NCBI RefSeq assembly: GCF_023634865.1
Contig: NZ_JAMLJN010000003.1
Coordinates: forward strand, 124,001-188,000
Length of the DNA stretch: 64,000 nt
Reading direction: 5' to 3'
Source of the DNA: Flavobacterium fragile
GTDB lineage: Bacteria > Bacteroidota > Bacteroidia > Flavobacteriales > Flavobacteriaceae
Below are positions 20,104-31,505 of this stretch, piece after piece (position 1 is the first letter of the stretch; each line of letters opens with the position of its first letter). The notes beneath the pieces are model-generated. The model was not told the DNA's origin, did no database searches, and saw only the letters and a list, made by a program, of their open reading frames with translations. The position numbers were made by a program, and so were the translations under genes.

Positions 20104-21617
20104 TGAAAGCACTTTTTAGCATACAAAATTGGTTTCTTGAGCATGTAGGAAATATCGATATAGAAACTATTCAAAAATGGTTTTTATATGATCCTAAACA
20201 CCCTCTATTATTTAACAGTGCTCTGTTTTTGGGTTTGTTTTTGTTTTTTTACGTTATCTATATCTTGTCTCGCAAAACCCATTATTTTAGAATTACCTAT
20301 GTAGTGGCGTTTTCAATATTTTTTTACTACAAGTCGAGTGGAGTTTATTTTTGGCTTTTGATATTTTCATCAATGGTAGACTACGTTTTGTCTCGATTAA
20401 TTTATGAAGAGCCAAAACAATGGTATCGTAAGTTTTATATGATACTTAGTTTGTTAATTAATCTCGGGATGTTGGCTTATTTTAAGTATACCAATTTCTT
20501 TATTGATAATTACAATAATTTTTTTAGCGGTAATTTAAAGTTTGAAGATATTGTACTACCTGTAGGAATCTCTTTTTACACTTTTCAGATTTTAAGTTAT
20601 ACCGTTGATGTTTATCGTGGTGATTTGAAACCCACTAAAAATTTTATCGATTTCTTGTTTTTTGTTTCGTTTTTTCCTCAATTAGTTGCTGGGCCGATTG
20701 TTAGAGCAAGTGATTTTATTCCTCAAATTTATGAGAAGCTCAAGCTTACGAAAGAAGAATTTAATCGTGCTTTGTTTTTAATTATTGGAGGATTACTAAA
20801 AAAAGCTGTAATATCGGATTATATCTCAAGTAATTTTGTTGATCGTGTTTTTGATGCGCCGAATAGTTATACCGCTTTTGAAAACTTAATGGCTTCTTAT
20901 GGTTATGCTATTCAAATTTATTGTGACTTTTCAGGGTATTCTGATATAGCGATTGGGTTGGCCTTATTAATGGGATTCTGGTTGCCTGATAACTTTAGAA
21001 CGCCTTACCAATCCGCTTCTATTACCGAGTTTTGGAGAAGATGGCATATTTCCCTTTCGAGTTGGTTAAGGGATTACCTCTATATTTCTATGGGAGGAAA
21101 TCGCAAGGGTAAACTAAGAACCTATTTTAATTTATTCATGACGATGTTGTTGGGAGGATTGTGGCATGGCGCTTCCTGGAAATTTGTAGTTTGGGGGATT
21201 CTTCACGGATTGGCATTAGTCTTTGAGAAATTCTTTGGACAGTTTATTAAGTTGCCTAAAAATGCTTTTGTAAGAACGATTCAAGTTGTCTTGACATTCC
21301 ATTTTGTTGTGTTTTGTTGGTTGTTTTTCCGCGCAAAAGATTTCACAACAGCATTTCAAATGGCGCATAATATCTCACAGTTAACCTTCGATTTTAATCA
21401 GTGGATGACTATTATTTTAGGTTATAAGCATGTTTTTTTACTGATAGCTATTGGAGTAGTTTGGCATTTTATTCCTATGAAAACTTTAGCCGTAATGCAA
21501 AATACCTTTTCAAAATTACCTTTAGTGGCTAAGGCGATCTTGTTAGGATTGATTTATTGGGTAGTTTATGCTACTGCTTCAGCTGATACACAACCTTTTA
21601 TTTATTTTCAGTTTTAG
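20103..21617 (+). CDS. MBOAT family O-acyltransferase (AlgI/PatA-like)
   Basis: A 504-aa multi-pass membrane protein that starts with GTG at 20103, inside the TAGTG overlap with the preceding stop codon. Hallmarks of the AlgI-type MBOAT family are present: LPVGISFYTFQILSYTVDVYRG (about 152-172), FWRRWHISLSSWLRDYLYI (310-328) and the catalytic His355 in GGLWHGASW. Such proteins move acetyl groups from cytoplasmic acetyl-CoA across the membrane, where SGNH partners place them on a polymer (as in alginate, or PatA/PatB with peptidoglycan). The LysM in the upstream gene points to peptidoglycan as the polymer (inference). Confidence 0.93.
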   Translation: MKALFSIQNWFLEHVGNIDIETIQKWFLYDPKHPLLFNSALFLGLFLFFYVIYILSRKTHYFRITYVVAFSIFFYYKSSGVYFWLLIFSSMVDYVLSRLIYEEPKQWYRKFYMILSLLINLGMLAYFKYTNFFIDNYNNFFSGNLKFEDIVLPVGISFYTFQILSYTVDVYRGDLKPTKNFIDFLFFVSFFPQLVAGPIVRASDFIPQIYEKLKLTKEEFNRALFLIIGGLLKKAVISDYISSNFVDRVFDAPNSYTAFENLMASYGYAIQIYCDFSGYSDIAIGLALLMGFWLPDNFRTPYQSASITEFWRRWHISLSSWLRDYLYISMGGNRKGKLRTYFNLFMTMLLGGLWHGASWKFVVWGILHGLALVFEKFFGQFIKLPKNAFVRTIQVVLTFHFVVFCWLFFRAKDFTTAFQMAHNISQLTFDFNQWMTIILGYKHVFLLIAIGVVWHFIPMKTLAVMQNTFSKLPLVAKAILLGLIYWVVYATASADTQPFIYFQF

Positions 21618-21660
21618 TAACTTTTGTTACTTACTAATTCTTTTTGTGGCTGTAATTTTG
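21616..21660 (+). promoter_or_regulatory. GTAAC-N4-GTTAC operator and promoter of the DUF6132 operon
   Basis: The palindrome AGTAAC-TTTT-GTTACT spans 21616-21631 (centre 21623.5) and overlaps the MBOAT stop. TAATTTTG at 21653-21660 matches the -7 box. From the palindrome centre to the last G is 36.5 bp; if the start site is 5 nt further on, the centre is at -41.5, the class II activator position of CRP/FNR proteins. No -33 TTG is present, which fits activator dependence. The same geometry occurs at 25087-25130 and 25222-25265. Confidence 0.65.
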
Positions 21661-21677
21661 TTATTCAGATTATCAAA

Positions 21678-21881
21678 ATGAATAGAAAAACTTTTATAAT
21701 AACTAGTATAGGAGTGGTTGTAGGTCTCCTTTCAGGATATGCCTATTATCATTATGTTGGATGTGTTTCAGGAACATGTTCGATAACCTCAAAGCCTTTA
21801 AATAGCACTTTGTACGGAGGTCTTATGGGAGGCCTGTTGTTTCATTTATTTGTAACCTCTCCTAAAAAGAAATCAGAATGA
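21678..21881 (+). CDS. DUF6132-type small membrane protein
   Basis: I start this at the ATG at 21678 (67 codons), just downstream of a promoter box; an upstream extension of the frame would begin in the operator. The protein has two hydrophobic helices (TFIITSIGVVVGLLSGYAYYH and LYGGLMGGLLFHLFV) separated by a loop with two cysteines (GCVSGTCSITSKP). This is the DUF6132 pattern: a small inner-membrane protein often encoded with rhodaneses and sulfur-handling genes in Bacteroidota. The conserved Cys pair suggests thiol or metal chemistry (inference). The stop overlaps the ATG of the methyltransferase gene (ATGA). Confidence 0.75.
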   Translation: MNRKTFIITSIGVVVGLLSGYAYYHYVGCVSGTCSITSKPLNSTLYGGLMGGLLFHLFVTSPKKKSE

Positions 21882-22474
21882 AACCATTTTGGGACGAACG
21901 TTATGGTGCTTCGGATTTTGCCTATGGAACAGCGCCGAATCAATTTTTAAAAGATAATATAAGTGCTTTACCAAAAGGTAAAATTTTATTTGCGGCTGAA
22001 GGTGAGGGCAGAAATGCTGTTTATGCTGCTCAACAAGGGTTTGAAGTTTATGCTTTTGATTACAGTGAAGCAGGAAAGGAAAAGGCTTTGAATTTGGCAG
22101 CTGCAACTCAAGTTCTTATAGATTATACCGTTTCTGATGTTTTGGAAGTTTCTTATCCGGAAGAACTGTTTGATGGACTCGTTTTGATTTTTGCTCATTT
22201 CCCGGCAACTATTCGAAAAGCAGCTCATTTGAAATTACTTTCTTTATTAAAACCTGGAGGTGTAATTATTTTTGAGGCTTTTGCGAAAAATCAATTGCAG
22301 TATAATTCTGGTGGTCCAAAAGACGTTGATATGCTATTCTCTTTGGATGAAATTTCAGAAGAATTTCCTAATGTAAAGTTTGATTCGCTAACAAATGAAA
22401 TAATTACTCTAGACGAAGGATTGTATCATCGAGGTGAGGGTGCATTAATTCGTTTTATAGGTACAAAAAAATAA
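21878..22474 (+). CDS. Class I SAM-dependent methyltransferase (TehB-like)
   Basis: A 198-aa methyltransferase. The N-terminus MKPFWDERYGASDFAYGTAPNQFL is typical of TehB/thiopurine-methyltransferase-like proteins. Motif I is ILFAAEGEGRNAVYAA, the acidic ribose-binding end of strand 2 is VYAFDYSEAG, and motif IV-like residues follow (DGLVLIFAHFP). It would methylate a small molecule or a soft nucleophile such as a chalcogen compound or thiol in the cytoplasm; the substrate is not known. It is translationally coupled to the DUF6132 gene and is followed after 3 bp by a small membrane protein gene. Confidence 0.82.
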   Translation: MKPFWDERYGASDFAYGTAPNQFLKDNISALPKGKILFAAEGEGRNAVYAAQQGFEVYAFDYSEAGKEKALNLAAATQVLIDYTVSDVLEVSYPEELFDGLVLIFAHFPATIRKAAHLKLLSLLKPGGVIIFEAFAKNQLQYNSGGPKDVDMLFSLDEISEEFPNVKFDSLTNEIITLDEGLYHRGEGALIRFIGTKK

Positions 22475-22477
22475 CAT

Positions 22478-22669
22478 ATGAAAAGGCTTTTATTTTCCAA
22501 TTGGCATTTTATGAGATGGGTTAGGCTGTTTTTAGCAGGCGTTGTTACCTATCTTGCTTTCAGCGAGGACCAATATATGTTTCTTTTTTTTGCATTCTTT
22601 TTTCTTATTCAAGCCCTATTTGATATGGGTTGTTCAGGAAATTCTTGTTCTATTCCTAAGCGAAAATAG
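22478..22669 (+). CDS. Small membrane protein with Cys tail (DUF2892/YgaP-like)
   Basis: A 63-aa protein with two hydrophobic stretches (WVRLFLAGVVTYLAFS and YMFLFFAFFFLIQALFDM) and a short C-terminal GCSGNSCSIPKRK tail. The two-helix hairpin resembles the membrane part of YgaP-type rhodaneses and DUF2892 proteins, and the tail cysteines echo the DUF6132 gene of the same operon. It starts 3 bp after the methyltransferase stop, so the three genes are one transcript under the GTAAC-N4-GTTAC promoter. Confidence 0.65.
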   Translation: MKRLLFSNWHFMRWVRLFLAGVVTYLAFSEDQYMFLFFAFFFLIQALFDMGCSGNSCSIPKRK

Positions 22670-22739
22670 AAGAATCGTTATGTAAAGAATTTCTATATCC
22701 ATACGTTACACGTTTGTTTTTATTTTGTAACTTTGATAT

Positions 22740-23057
22740 ATGAAATTATTCTCTTGCATACTTTTTATTTATTTGACGGCACTTACCACTTTACCGTCTG
22801 TAAGAGCAATGAAAGTGTTTTTTAAAGAACAATGTGAGATATCGTGTCATGCATCCGATTCTGATGCTTTAGGTTGTGAAAAAGGTAAAATTATTATGGG
22901 TTTAAACTTTAGTCCTGTTCAATTTGTAAGTGAATTGGATTTTAAGCCTGAGATTATTTTTGCTGAATTCAAAATTCAAAAAGAGCAATCTAATTACGAG
23001 AAAATCTTTATTTCAAAATATCAAAGTTCCATTTGGCATCCTCCCAAATATATTTAA
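22740..23057 (+). CDS. Small exported protein of unknown function
   Basis: A 105-aa protein. Residues 1-23 look like a signal peptide (MKLFSCILFIYLTALTTLPS, then VRA). The mature part has three cysteines in CEISCHASDSDALGC and then an AIIMGLNFSPVQFV-like hydrophobic strand, and ends at WHPPKYI. The Cys/His cluster suggests metal or thiol contact (inference). A TAACTTTG box lies only 4 bp before the ATG, too close for a standard leader, so either that box is not the promoter or the true start is different. I do not recognise a family. Confidence 0.55.
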   Translation: MKLFSCILFIYLTALTTLPSVRAMKVFFKEQCEISCHASDSDALGCEKGKIIMGLNFSPVQFVSELDFKPEIIFAEFKIQKEQSNYEKIFISKYQSSIWHPPKYI

Positions 23058-23084
23058 TTCTTTTACGATTTAACTAGATTACAA

Positions 23085-23104
23085 AGTTTGTGAAATCACA
23101 AACT
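23085..23104 (+). promoter_or_regulatory. Perfect 20-bp palindrome upstream of the kelch-type gene
   Basis: AGTTTGTGA-AA-TCACAAACT: two perfect 9-bp arms around AA, 19 bp before the ATG at 23124. No T run follows, so it looks more like an operator or leader hairpin than a terminator. The inner TGTGA/TCACA halves resemble CRP half-sites but with 2 rather than 6 bp between them. Confidence 0.5.
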
Positions 23105-23123
23105 CAATACATAATGGAATAAA

Positions 23124-24731
23124 ATGAAATATTTAATTAAGGTGCTTTTGTTTGTCTTTTTTCAGTCAACACTAGCGCAAAGTACTTTTACTTATGATGT
23201 TGTTCTCACACCAGTTTCTGTTGCTGGATTGCCAGGTCTGCATTCTTATGCCTTTGCACAACATGAAGGAAAATGGCTTATCATAGGTGGGAGAAAAGAT
23301 GGTGTTCACGCTCGACAACCTTTTAGAGCTTTTCCGGGTGACCAAAACAATACTGACCTTTATGTGGTAGACGTTGCTAAAAAGCAATCTTGGTCGGCTT
23401 CGGTGCATTCACTTCCCACAGCACTTAAAGAACAGTTGCAGTCTACTAATATGAATTTTTATCAAGATGGTGATCAATTGTTTATTATTGGAGGTTATGC
23501 TTATTCAAATTCGGCTTCCGATCATAAAACATTTCCTCATTTGACATCGGTAGATGTTCCTAATTTAATTCATGCTATTATCAAAGGAAGTCCGATACAA
23601 TCCTTTTTCAAACAAATTACTAATGATGTGTTTGCTATTACGGGAGGACAATTAGGCAAAATTGGTACAACCTTTTATTTAGTTGGTGGGCATCGATTTG
23701 ATGGACGCTATAATCCTATGAATCATCCAACTTTTACCCAAACGTATTCGAATGCGATTCGTAAGTTTACGATTAATACTACTGGGACCTCATTAACCTT
23801 TACTGATTATGAAGAAATTGTAGATCCCGTTCATTTACATCGTCGCGATTATAATTTGTTGCCTCAGGTGTTTCCTAATGGCGAGTTGGGCTACACCATT
23901 TCTTCAGGTGTATTTCAGATAGAAGCGGAATTGCCTTTTTTATATCCAGTTGACATTAAAACTTCTGGATATTTTCCGCAAATGCAGTTCAATCAATATT
24001 TGAGTAATTATCATAGTGGAAAAGTTTGTTTGTACGATGCTGTAAATAATCAAATGCACAATTTGTTTTTTGGAGGAATCAGTCGATATAGCTATCAAAA
24101 TGGGGCATTACTTAAAGACGACAGTGTTCCTTTTGTAAAAACTATAAGTAGCACTACTCGTTTTGCTGATGGAAGTATGGCAGAATACCAGTTGCCAATT
24201 GAAATGCCGAATTTAAAAGGTGCTGGTGCTGAATTTATTCCAAATTTGAATTTACCTCATTATTCTAATGAAGTACTTCAATTATCAAAAATTACTGAGG
24301 ATAGTTTTGTAATTGGACATTTGTTTGGAGGAATTCAAAGTACTTCTCCTGATGCATTTTCTACTAATCAAACCCATTTAACAAGTGCTGATCCTACGGT
24401 TTATGAGGTGAAATTGGTTAAGAATACGAGTTTAGTAAATACGCCATTAGATGGAAAAAATCCATTTAGTTTGTCCCTATTGTCTTCAGAATCAACAGCT
24501 GATATTGCAAGGATTCAGTTTGAAATGCCTTATTTGGCCCAAGTGAATTATTTGGTTACTTCTTCAACTGGAGCGATTTTGGAAGCCGGTGAAATTGAGG
24601 ATGTAAAACAAGGGGTTAATACTATGAGTTTTGATTTAAAATCCTATGCCTCAGAAGTAATAACTATTACTTTTATATTTGACGATACTTTTTACACTTC
24701 TGAACTTGTGTCCCGAAAGAACAAAAAATAA
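23124..24731 (+). CDS. Secreted kelch-type beta-propeller protein, possible T9SS substrate
   Basis: A 535-aa protein with a signal peptide (MKYLIKVLLFVFFQSTLAQ). Kelch-like motifs repeat through the body: WLIIGGRKDG, LFIIGGYAYSN, FYLVGGHRFDGRYNPM and NLFFGGISRYS, each a glycine pair followed by an aromatic residue. The last 85 residues (NPFSLSLLSSE, then LVTSSTGAILEAGE and GVNTMSFDLK) resemble a diverged type A Por-secretion-tail fold, so export by the type IX system is possible (inference). The ligand is unknown. It lies between a small Cys-containing exported protein and a Cys-rich peptide, suggesting a shared surface or metal-related role. Confidence 0.7.
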   Translation: MKYLIKVLLFVFFQSTLAQSTFTYDVVLTPVSVAGLPGLHSYAFAQHEGKWLIIGGRKDGVHARQPFRAFPGDQNNTDLYVVDVAKKQSWSASVHSLPTALKEQLQSTNMNFYQDGDQLFIIGGYAYSNSASDHKTFPHLTSVDVPNLIHAIIKGSPIQSFFKQITNDVFAITGGQLGKIGTTFYLVGGHRFDGRYNPMNHPTFTQTYSNAIRKFTINTTGTSLTFTDYEEIVDPVHLHRRDYNLLPQVFPNGELGYTISSGVFQIEAELPFLYPVDIKTSGYFPQMQFNQYLSNYHSGKVCLYDAVNNQMHNLFFGGISRYSYQNGALLKDDSVPFVKTISSTTRFADGSMAEYQLPIEMPNLKGAGAEFIPNLNLPHYSNEVLQLSKITEDSFVIGHLFGGIQSTSPDAFSTNQTHLTSADPTVYEVKLVKNTSLVNTPLDGKNPFSLSLLSSESTADIARIQFEMPYLAQVNYLVTSSTGAILEAGEIEDVKQGVNTMSFDLKSYASEVITITFIFDDTFYTSELVSRKNKK

Positions 24732-24770
24732 ATTAATTTAAATTTAAGAGTACTATTTCTAAAATTACTT

Positions 24771-24778
24771 ATATTTGT
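24771..24778 (+). promoter_or_regulatory. -7 box for the Cys-rich peptide gene
   Basis: TATATTTG, 51 bp before the ATG at 24830. No palindrome of the GTAAC type is seen at the 36.5-bp position. Confidence 0.4.
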
Positions 24779-24829
24779 AGTAGTACAATGCAAACTAAAG
24801 AATAAATAACAATTTAAAAAATACAAAAA

Positions 24830-25039
24830 ATGAAAAAATTAATTTCTATTATGGCTGTTGCCGCTTTTATGTTTTCAATGAATGTTAACGCACAAGAGCC
24901 TAAGAAAAAAGAGAAAAAAGAAACAGCTAAAACAGAAAAATCTTGTTCTACAGCAGAGAAAAAATCTTGTGGAACGGATTCTAAATCTGGTGGAGGATGT
25001 TGTTCTTCTAAAAAGTCAGCTGAGAAAAAAGCGGAATAA
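24830..25039 (+). CDS. Small Cys/Lys-rich exported protein
   Basis: A 69-aa protein with a clean signal peptide (MKKLISIMAVAAFMFSMNVNA, cleavage before QEP). The mature 48 residues are almost entirely Lys, Glu, Ser, Gly and Cys, with cysteines at KSCSTAEKKSCGTDSK and GGGCCSSKK. This composition is that of a disordered, thiol-rich peptide, plausibly binding soft metals in the periplasm. It is encoded immediately before the RND efflux operon but has its own promoter and a strong terminator. Confidence 0.7.
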   Translation: MKKLISIMAVAAFMFSMNVNAQEPKKKEKKETAKTEKSCSTAEKKSCGTDSKSGGGCCSSKKSAEKKAE

Positions 25040-25060
25040 TCTTATTCACATTAAAAACAG

Positions 25061-25086
25061 AGCCCCGATTTATCGGGGCTTTTTTT
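25061..25086 (+). terminator. Terminator after Cys-rich peptide gene
   Basis: AGCCCCGAT-TT-ATCGGGGCT, a 9-bp GC-rich stem with a 2-nt loop, followed by six T and then G. This is one of the strongest hairpins in the window. Confidence 0.9.
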
Positions 25087-25130
25087 GTAACATTAGTTAC
25101 TGAATAGGTTGTTATGTGTCAATACCTTTG
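25087..25130 (+). promoter_or_regulatory. GTAAC-N4-GTTAC operator with -7 box, orphan promoter
   Basis: GTAAC-ATTA-GTTAC spans 25087-25100 (centre 25093.5), beginning right after the T run of the preceding terminator. TACCTTTG lies at 25123-25130; centre to last G is 36.5 bp, identical to the sites at 21616 and 25222. No protein-coding frame begins downstream before the hairpin at 25176-25200, so this promoter would drive a short transcript of about 70 nt. Confidence 0.6.
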
Positions 25131-25134
25131 AATT

Positions 25135-25205
25135 CAATTTAATTTGAATTGATAGTTTTAGTATGATTGGTTAGTAAGAGCGTTCTTCAAGGACGCTCTT
25201 CTATT
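25135..25205 (+). ncRNA. Candidate small RNA under CRP/FNR-like control
   Basis: The span from the inferred start (5 nt after TACCTTTG) to a strong hairpin followed by a pyrimidine/T-rich tail is about 70 nt and encodes no protein. The 5' part can form a short A/U hairpin (TCAATT with AATTGA); the 3' part ends in AAGAGCGT-N9-ACGCTCTT. It is a distinct unit because the preceding gene has its own terminator and the following operon has its own identical operator-promoter. An alternative is that it is only a leader remnant of the RND operon. Confidence 0.35.
25176..25205 (+). terminator. Orphan hairpin terminator
   Basis: AAGAGCGT (25176-25183), a 9-nt loop and ACGCTCTT (25193-25200), followed by CTATTTT. 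It has no upstream coding gene of its own. Confidence 0.65.
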
Positions 25206-25221
25206 TTAACTCTCATATTGT

Positions 25222-25265
25222 GTAACTCATGTTACCGACTACCTTTTTTTTCGAATGTACATTTG
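25222..25265 (+). promoter_or_regulatory. GTAAC-N4-GTTAC operator and promoter of the RND efflux operon
   Basis: GTAAC-TCAT-GTTAC spans 25222-25235 (centre 25228.5) and TACATTTG lies at 25258-25265. Centre to last G is again 36.5 bp. The inferred start near 25270 leaves a 24-nt leader before the tolC-like ATG at 25294. Confidence 0.68.
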
Positions 25266-25293: not shown

Positions 25294-26601
25294 ATGAAAA
25301 AAGTCAACTTGTTAATCGTTTTAGGATTGGTGTCTGTTACTGCTTTTGCACAAGACACTTTGACGATTTCAAAAAATGATTTGTTACAAAAAGTCACTGA
25401 AAATAACCTACAAATTAAAGTGGCTGAAAAATCATTTCAATCTGCAAAAGCGGATTATCGTCAATCGAATGCGCTCTTTTTGCCTAATGTTACGGTTTCA
25501 CATACTGGAATAGCTACTACCAATCCTTTAATGGCTTTTGGTTCGAAGTTGAATCAGGAAATTTTAACTGCTACTGATTTTAATCCTACTTTGTTAAATG
25601 ATCCTAAGAGAACCCAAAATTTTGCTACTAAGATTGAGGTGCAACAACCTTTGCTTAATGTAGATGGATTGCTAGGAAGACAAGCTGCTAAAGCTAAAAT
25701 GGAAGCGTTTCAGTATCAAACAGAACGTACTAAAGAATATTTAAAATTTGAAGTTTCAAAAGCGTACATGCAATTACAATTGGCTTACAAAGCAGTGAAA
25801 GTTTTAGAAAAAGCAAATTCAACTGCTCAAGGCAATTTGAAATTAGTTGAAAATTATTTTAAAAACGGAATGTTGCAAAAAACCGATTTGTTAAATGTAC
25901 AGGTTCGTGTGAATGAAATCGTTAATCAATTGCAATATGCCAAATCGAATGTACAAAATGCTTCGGATTATTTAGCTTTTTTATTAAACGAAGATATGGC
26001 TGGTAAAACCTATAAACCTGCTGAAGCATTAGATAATGCAATTGTCATTGAAAATATCAGTACAACACTTTCTGATTCTAGAAAAGATATTCAAGCGATG
26101 CAAAAATCGGCAGAAGCGTATCAAAAAATGTTTCAATCGTCTAAATTCGGATTTTTACCAAGATTGAATGCTTTTGGAAGTTACGAATTGTATGACCAAC
26201 ATGTGTTTCAAACTTCAGCAAAAGGATATGTAGTAGGTGCTCAATTATCATGGAATGTTTTTGATGGCTATAAGAATATCGGAAAAACACAAAAAGCAAA
26301 AGCTGATTTTGAAAAAGCAACGGTTGAAACCGAACAATACAAAAAACAAAGTCAGTTAGAATTGAGTAAAACGAATCGCCAATTGCTTGATGCCCACAAC
26401 AAAGTGAATTTATCCCAATTGGCTTTTGAACAATCACAAGAAGCTTACAGAATTCGTCAAAACCGATTCACACAAGGTTTAGAAAAAACTACCGATTTAC
26501 TAATGGCTGAAACCCAAATGGCGCAAAAAGAATTAGAGCATTTGCAAGCTGTTTTCGAATATAACTTTACTAAACAATATTTACAATTTTTAACGAAATA
26601 A
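25294..26601 (+). CDS. TolC-family outer-membrane efflux protein
   Basis: A 435-aa outer-membrane channel component. A signal peptide (ends at TAFAQ) is followed by two long alpha-helical coiled repeats of the OEP fold (about residues 25-215 and 235-430), for example NNLQIKVAEKSFQSAKADYRQSNALFLP and its counterpart SRKDIQAMQKSAEAYQKMFQSSKFGFLP; the repeated FLP-x-(V/L) strand entry is typical. It should form the exit duct for the adaptor and RND pump encoded next, 4 bp and 63 bp further on. It is the first gene of the operon behind the GTAAC palindrome promoter. Confidence 0.9.
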   Translation: MKKVNLLIVLGLVSVTAFAQDTLTISKNDLLQKVTENNLQIKVAEKSFQSAKADYRQSNALFLPNVTVSHTGIATTNPLMAFGSKLNQEILTATDFNPTLLNDPKRTQNFATKIEVQQPLLNVDGLLGRQAAKAKMEAFQYQTERTKEYLKFEVSKAYMQLQLAYKAVKVLEKANSTAQGNLKLVENYFKNGMLQKTDLLNVQVRVNEIVNQLQYAKSNVQNASDYLAFLLNEDMAGKTYKPAEALDNAIVIENISTTLSDSRKDIQAMQKSAEAYQKMFQSSKFGFLPRLNAFGSYELYDQHVFQTSAKGYVVGAQLSWNVFDGYKNIGKTQKAKADFEKATVETEQYKKQSQLELSKTNRQLLDAHNKVNLSQLAFEQSQEAYRIRQNRFTQGLEKTTDLLMAETQMAQKELEHLQAVFEYNFTKQYLQFLTK

Positions 26602-26605
26602 CACT

Positions 26606-27688
26606 ATGAAAAAAATAATAACAATAATCACTTTGTCTTCATTAATCTTAACTTCTTGTGGAAGTGATAAAAAAGAAAATGTAGCAGATTTACCTGCAAT
26701 TTCAGTAAAAGTAGCTGGGAATTCAGGAAATTCAAATAGTCCGTATGTAACGGCAAGTGGAAAAATTGAATCTGAAAATAGTGCCAATTTAAGTACTAGA
26801 ATGATGGGTTATGTAACCAAAGTAAATGTAAAAGTGGGACAAAATGTTTCGGCTGGGCAACTTTTGGTAAGCATCAATAATACGGATTTACAAGCTAAAA
26901 AAGCACAAGTAGATGCTTCCATCACACATGCTACAGCTGCTTATAACAATGCCAAAAAAGATTATGATCGTTTTGTGAATTTGTTTGCACAACAATCGGC
27001 TTCTCAAAAAGAATTAGATGATATGACGGCTCGCTACGAAATGGCAAAAGCAGGATTAGAAGCAGCCAAACAAATGCGTAATGAAGTGATGGCGCAGTTT
27101 TCTTATTCGAATATCACCGCTCCATTTTCAGGAACAGTTACTAATACTTTTGTAAAAGAAGGTGATATGGCCAACCCAGGAATGCCTTTAGTAAGTATTG
27201 AAGGAGCATCAAGATTACAAGTAACGGCTATGGTTTCAGAAAGTGATATTTCGAATGTAAAAAACGGAATGCCAGTAAAAATCAATGTAAAATCATTAAA
27301 CAAAGAAGTAACTGGAAAAGTTTCTGAAGTGAGTTTATCCGCAAAAAATACAGGCGGACAATATTTGGTGAAAGTAACTTTGGACAAAATGGATAAAGAA
27401 ATCTTATCTGGAATGTTTGTAAACGTGCAATTCCCAACCGCTAAAAAAGAAGTATCTACTGTGAAATCGGATGTGGTTCTAGTTCCAGAAAGCGCTCTAG
27501 TAAAACAAGGACAATTAACTGGAATTTATACCATAGGAAGTGGTAATGTAGCCATTTTAAGATGGTTAAGAATCGGGAAAACATTCGGAAATCAAGTAGA
27601 AGTATTATCTGGATTATCAGCAGATGAGCTCTATATTGTTTCGGCAGAAGGAAAATTATTCAACGGAGCTAAGATTAGTGTTCAGTAA
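26606..27688 (+). CDS. RND efflux periplasmic adaptor (membrane fusion protein)
   Basis: A 360-aa lipoprotein (LILTSCGS, Cys18) of the HlyD/AcrA type. The split lipoyl domain halves are seen at GYVTKVNVKVGQNVSAGQLL (about residues 70-90) and NITAPFSGTVTNTFVKEGD (about 170-190), with a coiled-coil hairpin between them (AYNNAKKDYDRFVNLFAQQSA, then ASQKELDDMTARYEMAKAG). Beta-barrel and membrane-proximal domains follow. It connects the TolC-like protein and the RND permease. There are no Met- or His-rich metal-binding extensions of the kind found in CusB. Confidence 0.92.
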   Translation: MKKIITIITLSSLILTSCGSDKKENVADLPAISVKVAGNSGNSNSPYVTASGKIESENSANLSTRMMGYVTKVNVKVGQNVSAGQLLVSINNTDLQAKKAQVDASITHATAAYNNAKKDYDRFVNLFAQQSASQKELDDMTARYEMAKAGLEAAKQMRNEVMAQFSYSNITAPFSGTVTNTFVKEGDMANPGMPLVSIEGASRLQVTAMVSESDISNVKNGMPVKINVKSLNKEVTGKVSEVSLSAKNTGGQYLVKVTLDKMDKEILSGMFVNVQFPTAKKEVSTVKSDVVLVPESALVKQGQLTGIYTIGSGNVAILRWLRIGKTFGNQVEVLSGLSADELYIVSAEGKLFNGAKISVQ

Positions 27689-27751: not shown

Positions 27752-30700
27752 ATGCAAGAAGGTATATCAGGTAAAATAGCCAATTTCTTTATCAACTCTA
27801 AATTAACCATTTTATTGATGGTGGCGTTGATGATTATTGGTACATACAGTTCGTTCTTAATTCCAAGGGAAGAAGAACCGCAAATAAACGTTCCTATGGC
27901 CGATGTTATGGTCATGTATCCAGGAGCTAGCCCATCTGAGATGGAAAGTAGAGTGGTAAAACCATTAGAGAAAATTATTAGCAACATCAAGGGAGTGGAG
28001 CACATTCACAGTATGGCTTTCAATGGCTATTCTATGATGGTGGTACAATTTTATGTGGGTGAAAACAGTGAAGATTCGTATGTAAAATTATATGACGAAT
28101 TGATGAAAAATCGCACGATGTTCCCTGAAGGTGTTATGCAACCTATCGTAAAAACGCGTTCGATTGATGATGTTCCGATGTTGGGATTAACGCTTTGGAG
28201 TGAAAAATATGATGATTTCCAATTACGTCAAATAGCCGAAGAAGTTACTTCGGAAGTTGAAAAAGTAAAAGATGTTGCGATTACGAAAGAAATTGGTGGA
28301 AGAACACGCGAGCTAAAAGTAGTTTTAGACAAGGATAAAATGGCTGAAAATGGTGTTGATGCGTTGGGCATTATGCAAATGATTCAAGCCAATAACGGAA
28401 GTTCGCAATCAGGAAGTTTTGTGCAAAATGATACCGAGTATTTAGTTACAACAGGTAAATTTTTAGCCACTTCGGAAGACGTAGAAAACTTGGTAGTCGG
28501 TGTCAATAACAACATGCCGGTTTACTTAAAACAAGTCGCTTCGATTCAAGATGGACCTCAAACGCCAAAGAATTATGTGTCTTTTGGTTACGGAAAAGCG
28601 AATGAGAAATTCTCAAAATTTAATTCAGAATATCCAGCCGTAACCATTTCGATTGCGAAAGTAAAAGGTGCCGATGCGATGCAAATTTCAGAGAAAATCA
28701 TTACTAAAGTTGAAAGCTTAAAGAAAAATATTATTCCTGCAGATGTGCATGTCGAAGTTACTCGTAACTACGGAGAAACTGCCTCACACAAAGTAGGAGA
28801 GTTGTTGTTACACTTAGGTGTTGCCATTATTGCGGTAACGGTTTTAGTAATGTTAGCTATGGGCTGGAGAGGTGGATTAGTAGTTTTCTTTTCAGTTCCA
28901 TTAACTTTTGCTTTAACTTTATTTAGTTACTATTTATTAGGCTATACGTTAAATAGAATTACGCTTTTTGCTTTAGTGTTCGTAGTTGGTATTGTGGTGG
29001 ATGATAGTATTATTATTGCCGAAAACATGCACCGTCATTTCAAAATGAAGCGACTGCCATTCAAACAAGCCGCTATTTATGCGATTAACGAAGTAGGTAA
29101 CCCAACGATTTTAGCAACATTTACCGTAATTGCAGCTATCTTACCAATGGCTTTCGTATCGGGTATGATGGGACCTTATATGAGTCCAATGCCGATTGGT
29201 GCTTCTATTGCGATGTTATTATCATTGTTTGTAGCTTTAACGGTTACGCCTTATTTAGGTTACCATTTGTTACATGAAAAAGATGAGCAAGAACACAAAG
29301 AAGAACAAGGTTTAGAAACGTCTTGGATTTATAAAATCTATAAAAAAATTGAGCAACCGCTTTTAGACAACTCTAAGAAACGTAATCTAATGTTCTTGAT
29401 TACAGGAGTTTTATTACTAGGTTCTGTATTGATGTTCTTTACCAAATCGGTAGCCGTGAAAATGTTGCCTTTTGATAACAAAAATGAATTCCAAGTGGTG
29501 ATTGATATGCCAGAAGGAACTACTTTGGAAAGAACGGCTGCAGTTACTAAAGAAATTGCGCAATATCTTTCAACGGTTCCTGAAGTTGTGGATTATCAAA
29601 ATTATATTGGCGCTTCGGCTCCGATAACCTTTAATGGTTTGGTACGTCATTACGATATGCGTGGTGGAAGCAACATGGCGGATATTCAAGTAAACTTACT
29701 ACATAAAGAAGATCGCGATTTACAAAGTCACGATATCGCAAAAGTAGTACGTCCAGAAGTGCAAAAAATTGCTAAAAAATATGGTGCGAATGTAAAAATT
29801 GTGGAAGTTCCACCTGGACCACCCGTTTTATCTACTTTAGTGGCGGAGGTTTACGGACCTGATTATGAAGAGCAAATTAAAGTAGCGAATCAAGTGAAAA
29901 CCATTTTAGAAACTACAACAGATGTGGTTGATACCGATTGGATGGTAGAAGCGCCTCAAGTAGAATATAAATTAGAGGTGGATAGAGAAAAAGCCATGTT
30001 GAATGGAATCGCCCCACAGCAAGTAGTAGGTAATTTGACTTATTTATTAAGAGAAATGCCGGTTTCTAACTTGTATGATGAACGTTCAAATAATCCAGTT
30101 GGTATCACATTATCATTGGAAGATAAAGACAAAACTTCAATTCAAGATATTCAAAATTTGAAAATAAAAGGAAGTCGGGGTAATGTAGTTCCGGTTAGTG
30201 ATTTGGTAAAAGTTACTACTGATACCTTACAAAATACGATTTACAGAAAAGATCAAAAACGAGTAGTATATGTTTTAGCCGATATGGCAGGAGCCTTAGA
30301 AAGTCCGGTATATGCAATTTTAGGAATGAATGAGAAGTTGGAAAAAATGCAATTACCAAAAGGCTATAATGTAAACGAATTGTATATCGGTTCACCATCA
30401 GACGAAAGTAATTTTACTGTAAAATGGGATGGAGAATGGCAAATTACCTTAGAGGTGTTCCGTGATTTAGGAGCAGCGTTCTTAGTCGTAATTATCGTGA
30501 TTTACATGTTGATTGTAGGTTGGTTCCAAAATTTCAAAACACCAATCGTTATGATGGTGGCGATTCCTCTTTCGTTAGTGGGAATTGTGTTAGGTCACTG
30601 GATGTTAGGAGCGTTTTTTACTGCTACTTCATTTATTGGGATGATTGCGTTGGCTGGAGTTATGGTGCGAAATTCAGTCTTGTTGATTGACTTTATCGAA

Positions 30701-30949
30701 ATCCGATTGAACGATGGAATTCCGATTAAACAAGCTATCATTGAAGCTGGAGCCGTAAGAACAACCCCAATTTTATTAACTACAGGTGCTGTTGTGATTG
30801 GAGCCTCAATCATTTTGTTTGACCCAATTTTCCAAGGATTAGCTATTTCGTTAGTCGCAGGAGCGATTGTTTCAACATTGTTAACATTAATCGTAGTGCC
30901 TTTGATTTACTACATTACCGAACGTAAAAAATGGGAGAAAAATAATTAA
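27752..30949 (+). CDS. RND efflux permease (HAE1-like)
   Basis: A 1065-aa inner-membrane proton-driven pump with two homologous halves of six helices and two large periplasmic loops. The TM4 proton-relay segment reads VVGIVVDDSIIIAENMHRHF (two adjacent Asp), nearer to HAE1-type multidrug or lipophile pumps than to the DFGxxxDGA pattern of CzcA/CusA metal pumps. Conserved N-terminal PREEEPQINVPMADVMVMYPGASP is typical of the Bacteroidota subgroup. Substrate is not known; the nearby Cys-rich peptide and PII-like protein hint at metal or thiol stress but the helix sequence does not support a heavy-metal pump. Confidence 0.93.
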   Translation: MQEGISGKIANFFINSKLTILLMVALMIIGTYSSFLIPREEEPQINVPMADVMVMYPGASPSEMESRVVKPLEKIISNIKGVEHIHSMAFNGYSMMVVQFYVGENSEDSYVKLYDELMKNRTMFPEGVMQPIVKTRSIDDVPMLGLTLWSEKYDDFQLRQIAEEVTSEVEKVKDVAITKEIGGRTRELKVVLDKDKMAENGVDALGIMQMIQANNGSSQSGSFVQNDTEYLVTTGKFLATSEDVENLVVGVNNNMPVYLKQVASIQDGPQTPKNYVSFGYGKANEKFSKFNSEYPAVTISIAKVKGADAMQISEKIITKVESLKKNIIPADVHVEVTRNYGETASHKVGELLLHLGVAIIAVTVLVMLAMGWRGGLVVFFSVPLTFALTLFSYYLLGYTLNRITLFALVFVVGIVVDDSIIIAENMHRHFKMKRLPFKQAAIYAINEVGNPTILATFTVIAAILPMAFVSGMMGPYMSPMPIGASIAMLLSLFVALTVTPYLGYHLLHEKDEQEHKEEQGLETSWIYKIYKKIEQPLLDNSKKRNLMFLITGVLLLGSVLMFFTKSVAVKMLPFDNKNEFQVVIDMPEGTTLERTAAVTKEIAQYLSTVPEVVDYQNYIGASAPITFNGLVRHYDMRGGSNMADIQVNLLHKEDRDLQSHDIAKVVRPEVQKIAKKYGANVKIVEVPPGPPVLSTLVAEVYGPDYEEQIKVANQVKTILETTTDVVDTDWMVEAPQVEYKLEVDREKAMLNGIAPQQVVGNLTYLLREMPVSNLYDERSNNPVGITLSLEDKDKTSIQDIQNLKIKGSRGNVVPVSDLVKVTTDTLQNTIYRKDQKRVVYVLADMAGALESPVYAILGMNEKLEKMQLPKGYNVNELYIGSPSDESNFTVKWDGEWQITLEVFRDLGAAFLVVIIVIYMLIVGWFQNFKTPIVMMVAIPLSLVGIVLGHWMLGAFFTATSFIGMIALAGVMVRNSVLLIDFIEIRLNDGIPIKQAIIEAGAVRTTPILLTTGAVVIGASIILFDPIFQGLAISLVAGAIVSTLLTLIVVPLIYYITERKKWEKNN

Positions 30950-30999: not shown

Positions 31000-31305
31000 A
31001 TGAAATTAGTATTAATCACCGCTATAGCAGAATTTGAAAAAGAAGTCAAAAAGATGCTAAAAGAAGCTAAAGTAAAATCCTATTCGTACCGCGATGTAAA
31101 AGGTTTTAGAGATGCTTCAGAGGAAGGCGTGGAAGATAATTGGTTTGGTTCTGAAATGAATGAAACCGATTCAGTAATGTTTTACGCCTTCATTTTACAA
31201 CAAAATTTAGATGCTTTATTCGAAGAAGTAGCTGCATTTAATAAAAAACTTGAATCCATATCAAAAGTTCATTTAGCCGTTTTATCGGTAGAAAAATATA
31301 ATTAA
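31000..31305 (+). CDS. PII-superfamily-like small protein linked to RND pump
   Basis: A 101-aa protein. The N-terminus MKLVLITAIAEFEKEVKKML, then KEAKVKSYSYRDVKGFRD, follows the beta-alpha-beta layout of PII proteins, where 'lxxxGVKGxTVxxVKGFG' ends at the base of the T-loop. A PII-NG group linked to RND efflux genes is known. The T-loop here is short and acidic (ASEEGVEDNWFGSEMNETD) and lacks the Tyr uridylylation site. It may sense a ligand and gate or report on the pump (inference). It lies in the same operon as the pump, behind a hairpin. Confidence 0.55.
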   Translation: MKLVLITAIAEFEKEVKKMLKEAKVKSYSYRDVKGFRDASEEGVEDNWFGSEMNETDSVMFYAFILQQNLDALFEEVAAFNKKLESISKVHLAVLSVEKYN

Positions 31306-31316
31306 AATCAAAAATT

Positions 31317-31505
31317 ATGATCAATAGAATTGTTAGAGCAGTGGCAGGAACCTTTATTCTTTTAAGTGTTCTTTTAGGAATGTATGTAAATGAAAATTGG
31401 TATTGGTTTACCCTTTTTGTAGGGGCTAATTTACTACAATCATCCTTTACCAAATGGTGTTTAATGGAAGATATTTTAAGAAAAGTATTTAAGATAAAAG
31501 ATTAA
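31317..31505 (+). CDS. DUF2892 (YgaP-like) membrane protein
   Basis: A 62-aa protein with the DUF2892 pattern: NRIVRAVAGTFILLSVLLGMY, a WYWFTLFVGANLLQSSFTKWC second helix and a short cytoplasmic end (LMEDILRKVFKIKD). The Asn-Arg start, the N-x-x-QS-x-T motif and the single Cys in KWC match YgaP transmembrane domains, usually fused to or encoded with rhodaneses that handle persulfides. It is the last gene of the efflux operon, followed by a terminator. Confidence 0.8.
   Translation: MINRIVRAVAGTFILLSVLLGMYVNENWYWFTLFVGANLLQSSFTKWCLMEDILRKVFKIKD

Follow-up and report, generated by a model that had tools for sequence, protein, structure and literature searches.

Three palindrome-box composites in the window

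This analysis concerns a 64-kb stretch of the Flavobacterium fragile genome (contig NZ_JAMLJN010000003.1, positions 124,001 to 188,000; the window) and a promoter type that occurs in it three times, through which one regulator very probably turns on genes for toxic sulfur compounds. Exact copies of the palindrome GTAAC-N4-GTTAC number three in the window, where 0.04 are expected, and none of 100 dinucleotide shuffles reaches this number. After a spacer of 22 nucleotides (nt) every copy is followed by a TAnnTTTG box, a motif found in the window at a frequency of 0.00088 per position, so that the distance from the palindrome centre to the last G of the box is 36.5 bp in 3/3 cases. The original prediction of three identical promoters of rigid geometry, unlikely to arise by chance, thus agrees with our counts in geometry and probability. 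As to identity, it holds for the half-sites but not for N4 and the spacer sequence, and the coordinates 21616-21631 given for operator 1 were one base too wide on each side (Table 1).

In a start-site map of another flavobacterium (PMC9723704) the TAnnTTTG box lies at -12 to -5. Placing its last G at -5 puts the centre of the palindrome at -41.5, which supports the proposed class II geometry, though indirectly, as the start sites are taken from that other species. The lack of the usual -33 TTG largely extends to a wider set, where a TTG stands 17-21 nt before the TA in 6 of 150 unique composites of palindrome and box. Activator-site geometry and missing TTG are thus both observed, and we infer that the sites are operators of class II activator-dependent promoters, where a bound protein would activate rather than repress.

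Operator 1 lies upstream of the genes for a DUF6132 protein, a methyltransferase and a short protein, and operator 3 upstream of a TolC/RND efflux operon. The P-II-like protein of this operon was not accepted as a P-II family member because of its PF00543 score, and the YgaP-like family PF11127 is presumably the one formerly called DUF2892. Between the two gene groups (22740-25039) the window encodes a 105-residue, a kelch-like 535-residue and a Cys-rich 69-residue protein; paralogues adjoin the cytochrome bd operon (L165, L171), so that this duplicated gene block flanks both regulon clusters.

Table 1. Operators, boxes, genes and the candidate transcript in the window.
Feature	Position	Strand	Basis
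Operator 1, GTAAC-N4-GTTAC	21617..21630	+	
-7 box TAATTTTG, promoter 1	21653..21660	+	
DUF6132 protein	21678..21881	+	PF19628, 26.4 bits, cut-off 23.2
Small S-adenosylmethionine-dependent methyltransferase	21878..22474	+	PF13649, PF08241
63-residue protein, membrane-like by reading	22478..22669	+	no Pfam or NCBIfam match
Operator 2, GTAAC-N4-GTTAC	25087..25100	+	
-7 box TACCTTTG, promoter 2	25123..25130	+	
Predicted short transcript, small-RNA candidate	25135..25207	+	terminator scan, fold z -2.70
Operator 3, GTAAC-N4-GTTAC	25222..25235	+	
-7 box TACATTTG, promoter 3	25258..25265	+	
TolC-type outer membrane efflux protein	25294..26601	+	PF02321
Membrane-fusion protein	26606..27688	+	PF16576, PF13437
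RND transporter	27752..30949	+	PF00873
P-II-like protein	31000..31305	+	PF00543, 21.3 bits, below cut-off 25
YgaP-like transmembrane protein	31317..31505	+	PF11127

The composite in the genome and in related bacteria

The whole genome (G000; 2.69 Mb in 27 contigs) contains 11 GTAAC-N4-GTTAC palindromes, compared to four matches of the reversed control pattern. The exact geometry is found in six of the 11, namely the three of the window and three more. Of the latter, L001 stands before a rhodanese-like gene (call by reading) and L010 before the gene of cytochrome bd subunit I; L011 stands before a cytochrome c/Tll0287 gene, behind which come a rhodanese-like gene and a DUF6132-like paralogue (both by reading). 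Four others (L002, L003, L008, L009) lie inside coding sequence and lack a box, and the last, L007, is intergenic with a box at 33.5. Random placement with respect to the boxes, which would have refuted the original prediction, was thus not what the genome shows.

Allowing up to two mismatches, the composite matches 22 times in the genome against eight times for the reversed pattern. Six of these matches have one mismatch; five of the six are intergenic and one (C25:7765) is within coding sequence. The intergenic ones stand before a lactamase/rhodanese gene (C24:2387), a flavin oxidoreductase gene with a weak SQR score (C24:160146), thioredoxin and rhodanese genes (C22:71844), a gene for a Thioredoxin_9 protein (C12:443110) and one for a 136-residue protein without Pfam match (C24:165646). 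Together with the six exact composites this gives 11 candidate promoters.

In 149 genomes of the family a search with all spacers from 8 to 38 yielded 259 composites (reversed control 57), while the exact composite with spacer 22 was counted 195 times, in 94 of the genomes, against one match for the reversed control. The remaining 30 spacers therefore share about 64 composites, one G016 site having taken a shorter spacer in the wider search. By hand count among 150 of the 259 composites, 114 have spacer 22, 12 have spacer 21, six have spacer 23, and the other 28 spacers account for 18. The spacer-22 composite is also present in 36 of 81 genomes of the genus (no control match) and in 47 of 247 genomes of the class (four control matches). 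In its extended form the motif prefers T before the palindrome, and within N4 it prefers A in the first place and T in the last. The three sites of the window are thus part of a promoter set common to many related bacteria.

For the target genes we surveyed 143 sites (loci L016 onwards), equal to 116 unique composites. By mechanical gene calls an open reading frame starts at most 400 nt downstream of 114 of these, and two lie inside open reading frames. The predicted targets were clustered and one representative of each cluster was scanned with Pfam. The commonest clusters are TauE (32, a number raised by the fact that L046-L075 and 20 further regions were chosen around the regulator described below), lactamase_B/rhodanese with rhodanese (25) and outer membrane efflux protein (18). 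Sulfate permease, cytochrome c/Tll0287 and proteins without match follow with four each and DUF983 with three; YgaP-like_TM, cytochrome bd, Thioredoxin_9, sulphur transport, thioredoxin and fatty acid hydroxylase are found twice each. Of 12 single targets seven were scanned with Pfam: a peroxiredoxin, a redoxin, DsrE twice, DUF6132, NrfD with 4Fe-4S, and a protein of the regulator's own type. The suggested connection of sulfur and redox genes with an efflux operon is supported, though indirectly.

Promoter 2 is not followed by a gene of its own. The transcript predicted from it would start near 25135 and run into a terminator-like hairpin (25176-25200). Three near relatives (G402, G416, G440; loci L219, L220, L221) have at the same place a palindrome with one mismatch, TAATTTTG at spacer 22, the transcript core and a hairpin; the core is kept around TTTTAGTTTTATTGGTTAGT (one T shorter in L220), where the window reads TATGATTGG. 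The alignment has an unfavourable covariation term (+0.69), and in 3 of 20 pairs both bases are changed, each time in one sequence. What had been called a short orphan transcript is thus predicted with a terminator and a core kept in three close relatives, and we recast it as a small-RNA candidate. A tandem second site was rejected as a general feature of TolC promoters, since of 18 relatives, examined over 600 nt (182 nt in one), two have another palindrome, in both cases lacking a box. L219, L220 and L221 carry a further palindrome-like sequence (such as GTAACAATTGTCAC) about 24 nt upstream of the TolC operator, of which the window has a degenerate form.

The Crp/Fnr-family protein P0001 and its probable sites

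A Crp/Fnr-family regulator encoded outside the window had been postulated, and indirect support for it comes from P0001, a 210-residue Crp/Fnr-family protein (G000:C24:3212-3841) that is very probably the regulator of these sites. The genome encodes three Crp/Fnr proteins above the HTH_Crp_2 cut-off; a fourth match, below it, is in a ParB-like protein by reading. P0001 belongs to the Crp/Fnr superfamily by PF00027 (43.3 bits) and PF13545 (32.9 bits), both above cut-off, and the fold of its predicted model (predicted local distance difference test, pLDDT, 85; predicted template modelling score, pTM, 0.62) matches CRP, NtcA and 3dv8. Its scores lie below the equivalog cut-off for NtcA (TIGR03697, 49.6 bits against 244.95) and below the cut-off for CRP (NF008732, 57.9 bits against 266), and its recognition helix has Val183, not Glu. 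The N-terminal cysteine cluster of FNR was looked for and is absent, because cysteines are present solely at positions 77, 83 and 84. The P0001 subfamily is uncharacterised and by its sequence is neither Crp, Fnr nor NtcA.

The P0001 gene is located directly before TauE and lactamase/rhodanese genes. Taking E below 1e-60 as a strong homologue in family genomes and E up to 1e-30 as a homologue in the class, and counting genomes, which are not independent events, the exact composite is present in 92 of 116 family genomes with a strong homologue compared to 2 of 33 without; the values are 27 of 30 compared to 9 of 51 in the genus and 42 of 149 compared to 5 of 98 in the class. When 30 loci were chosen solely for their regulator score, 23 had a palindrome with at most one mismatch (19 of them an exact one) at the 3' end of the regulator gene, between 6 nt ahead of the gene end and 200 nt beyond it. 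Upstream of the gene (within 300 nt) it is found in 3/30, and at either end in 24/30. Autoregulation as a rule finds no support in these 3/30 loci, yet L115 has a site just before the regulator. Among 29 class-drawn loci the palindrome lies beside the regulator gene in 14, eight of them with a box at 22, and it adjoins the gene in 11 of 25 such loci from other families. Homologues of P0001 with one in-frame stop inside the match were seen in G017, G019, G044 and G145.

The recognition helix HTSRVVISRLLK is nearly invariant, with Arg182 and Arg187 in 66 of 66 alignment rows and Val183 in 97%. TSRVVISRLL of P0001 aligns with STRVTVTRLL of NtcA, for which PMC3898017 gives the consensus GTA-N8-TAC. 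This core is contained in GTAAC-N4-GTTAC and the Arg-Val...Arg pattern is present in the helix; judging from these residues, P0001 may work like NtcA in recognition without being a member of that group.

The proteins of a sister subfamily, most of them 38-45% identical, carry Glu at position 183. A like-for-like scan of 25 Glu-type loci gave seven sites, all of them hybrids in which one half has G-C, five being GTAAC-N4-GTCAC and two GTGAC-N4-GTTAC, compared to 5 of 26 sites with such a half near Val-type genes (p 0.0002, sites taken as independent). A lactamase gene was found in 12 of the 25 loci and by eye a site before it in 11, with promoter-proximal TCAC in 11/11. Relaxed sites in Glu-type loci occur solely at spacer 22 (10/10; spacers 12-34 scanned). 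In the class loci a GTAAC palindrome is found beside 14 of 22 Val-type but 0 of 7 Glu-type genes, and a relaxed scan finds one site in 1/7 of the latter. The half-site thus tends to follow the helix residue, Glu-type regulators tending toward hybrid GTAAC/GTCAC sites. Near a Val-type regulator, L060 (G069) has two GTGAC-N4-GTCAC sites with a box at 22, perhaps belonging to another Crp/Fnr protein.

Signal, alternative explanations and meaning

Cys77 of P0001 is present in 66/66 alignment rows and Cys83 in 95% (55/55 and 52/55 in further, partly overlapping rows). Dithiol reactive-sulfur sensors include SqrR, BigR and CstR, and the two conserved cysteines of such sensors are present in the P0001 family. 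The model segment 71-90 has a pLDDT of 63-68, and cysteine distances from the model were not used. In the best PDB match of P0001 by sequence (E 6.1e-17) and by fold, the Crp/Fnr-family protein 3dv8 (EUBREC_1222 from Eubacterium rectale, another phylum), cysteines are aligned at positions 77 and 83. Because of the near-invariant cysteines and the target set, reactive sulfur species are the likeliest signal.

In the mechanism that we propose, a P0001 dimer would bind tGTAAC-N4-GTTACa centred at about -41.5, replace the missing -33 element and recruit RNA polymerase with the primary sigma factor to TAnnTTTG, while Cys77 and Cys83 would read reactive sulfur species. The regulon would deal with sulfide and reactive sulfur by lactamase/rhodanese, rhodanese, an SQR-like enzyme, thioredoxins, TauE and other sulfur transport, cytochrome bd and the TolC/RND pump. 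We consider it likely that the sites are P0001-bound class II operators controlling such a regulon with reactive sulfur as the probable signal.

Several observations weigh against this reading. The exact composite is lacking in 24 of 116 family and 3 of 30 genus genomes with a strong homologue, and without one, two family genomes carry one site each and 9 of 51 genus genomes have exact palindromes. In these nine the palindrome precedes rhodanese-like (eight) or cytochrome c-like (one) genes, by reading, and the regulators fetched from them have Glu in eight and Val in the ninth (L237), so that the pairing of Val with GTTAC is a tendency and not a rule. The palindrome upstream of P0001 itself is imperfect, with a box that ends in TTTA at spacer 23, and L007, before a gene read as YeeE/YedE-like, has boxes at 33.5 and, in the other direction, 23.5. 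Furthermore, efflux, methyltransferase and fatty acid hydroxylase genes are not obviously sulfur genes, and the SQR call reaches 51.9 bits against a cut-off of 525.

It is possible, if doubtful, that P0001 is the regulator but senses nitric oxide, oxygen via heme or a general thiol oxidant, to which the sulfur genes respond. PgRsp, likewise a Crp/Fnr-type protein from the Bacteroidota, is a heme binder with a role in redox stress (PMC6955866), and the targets include peroxiredoxin and thioredoxin genes; however, sulfur enzymes and transporters make up the most frequent targets, even though regulator-centred loci inflate TauE. That another Crp/Fnr protein runs the sites is unlikely. The best candidate would be P0002, an FNR-like protein whose gene adjoins that of a CcoI-type ATPase, with a low-oxygen regulon in which sulfur genes are passengers of microaerobic life. 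Among the proteins of the genome P0002 gives the best match to HTH_Crp_2, and it shows similarity to Fnr (86.8 bits, cut-off 228); cytochrome bd and cytochrome c genes belong to the regulon. However, the recognition helices of both P0002 and P0003 (TESCIR, VETVIR) contain Glu, a residue that accompanies TGA half-sites in CRP and FNR, and it is P0001, not P0002, that is linked to the sites, co-occurrence having been computed for P0001-type proteins. Helix and linkage therefore make P0002 or P0003 the less likely regulators.

Quite improbably, P0001-type proteins could be repressors blocking polymerase at a fixed distance, the sites being merely close to the box. NtcA does repress some promoters (PMC3898017), but the spacing is held strictly at 22 nt on one face of the helix and the -33 TTG has been lost, both of which a class II activator requires and a repressor does not. 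Chance placement of palindromes and boxes, to which the four boxless palindromes in coding sequence (equal to the reversed control) might point, is ruled out for practical purposes by the 195 composites against one in the family genomes.

Each element of this system is of a known kind. Class II promoters of NtcA in cyanobacteria share the GTA-N8-TAC core centred at about -41.5, in one described site 22 nt before the -10 box (PMC3898017), but belong to another phylum, have TAN3T instead of TAnnTTTG and serve nitrogen instead of sulfur genes. In Acinetobacter, FisR and BigR control sulfide-induced persulfide dioxygenase, SQR, TauE, YeeE/YedE and CydAB (PMC7315123), a gene set that resembles the targets here. 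There, however, FisR is an activator of the sigma-54 type and BigR a repressor of the ArsR family, in contrast to a Crp/Fnr protein and primary-sigma promoters. HcpR, PgRsp and CrpPg of Porphyromonas gingivalis are likewise Crp/Fnr-superfamily proteins of a Bacteroidota species; for PgRsp the word sulfide has 0 occurrences in the main text of PMC6955866. In the literature searched we found no description of such a sulfide/persulfide regulon with its DNA code and regulator, nor this combination of elements.

Tentatively, we suggest that a Crp/Fnr-family dithiol persulfide sensor may be the main reactive-sulfur regulator in much of the class, presumably Bacteroidia, in a Val183/GTAAC-N4-GTTAC and a Glu183/hybrid GTAAC/GTCAC version, and that in one genus lineage it may drive a small RNA just upstream of the TolC/RND operon. 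If true, the finding would provide DNA code, regulator and gene set for sulfide/persulfide control in a large bacterial group. It would also give a testable setting for DUF6132 and YgaP-like transmembrane proteins, the P-II-like protein, the small methyltransferase and the TolC/RND pump, and would offer a natural one-residue, one-base covariation for Crp/Fnr recognition.

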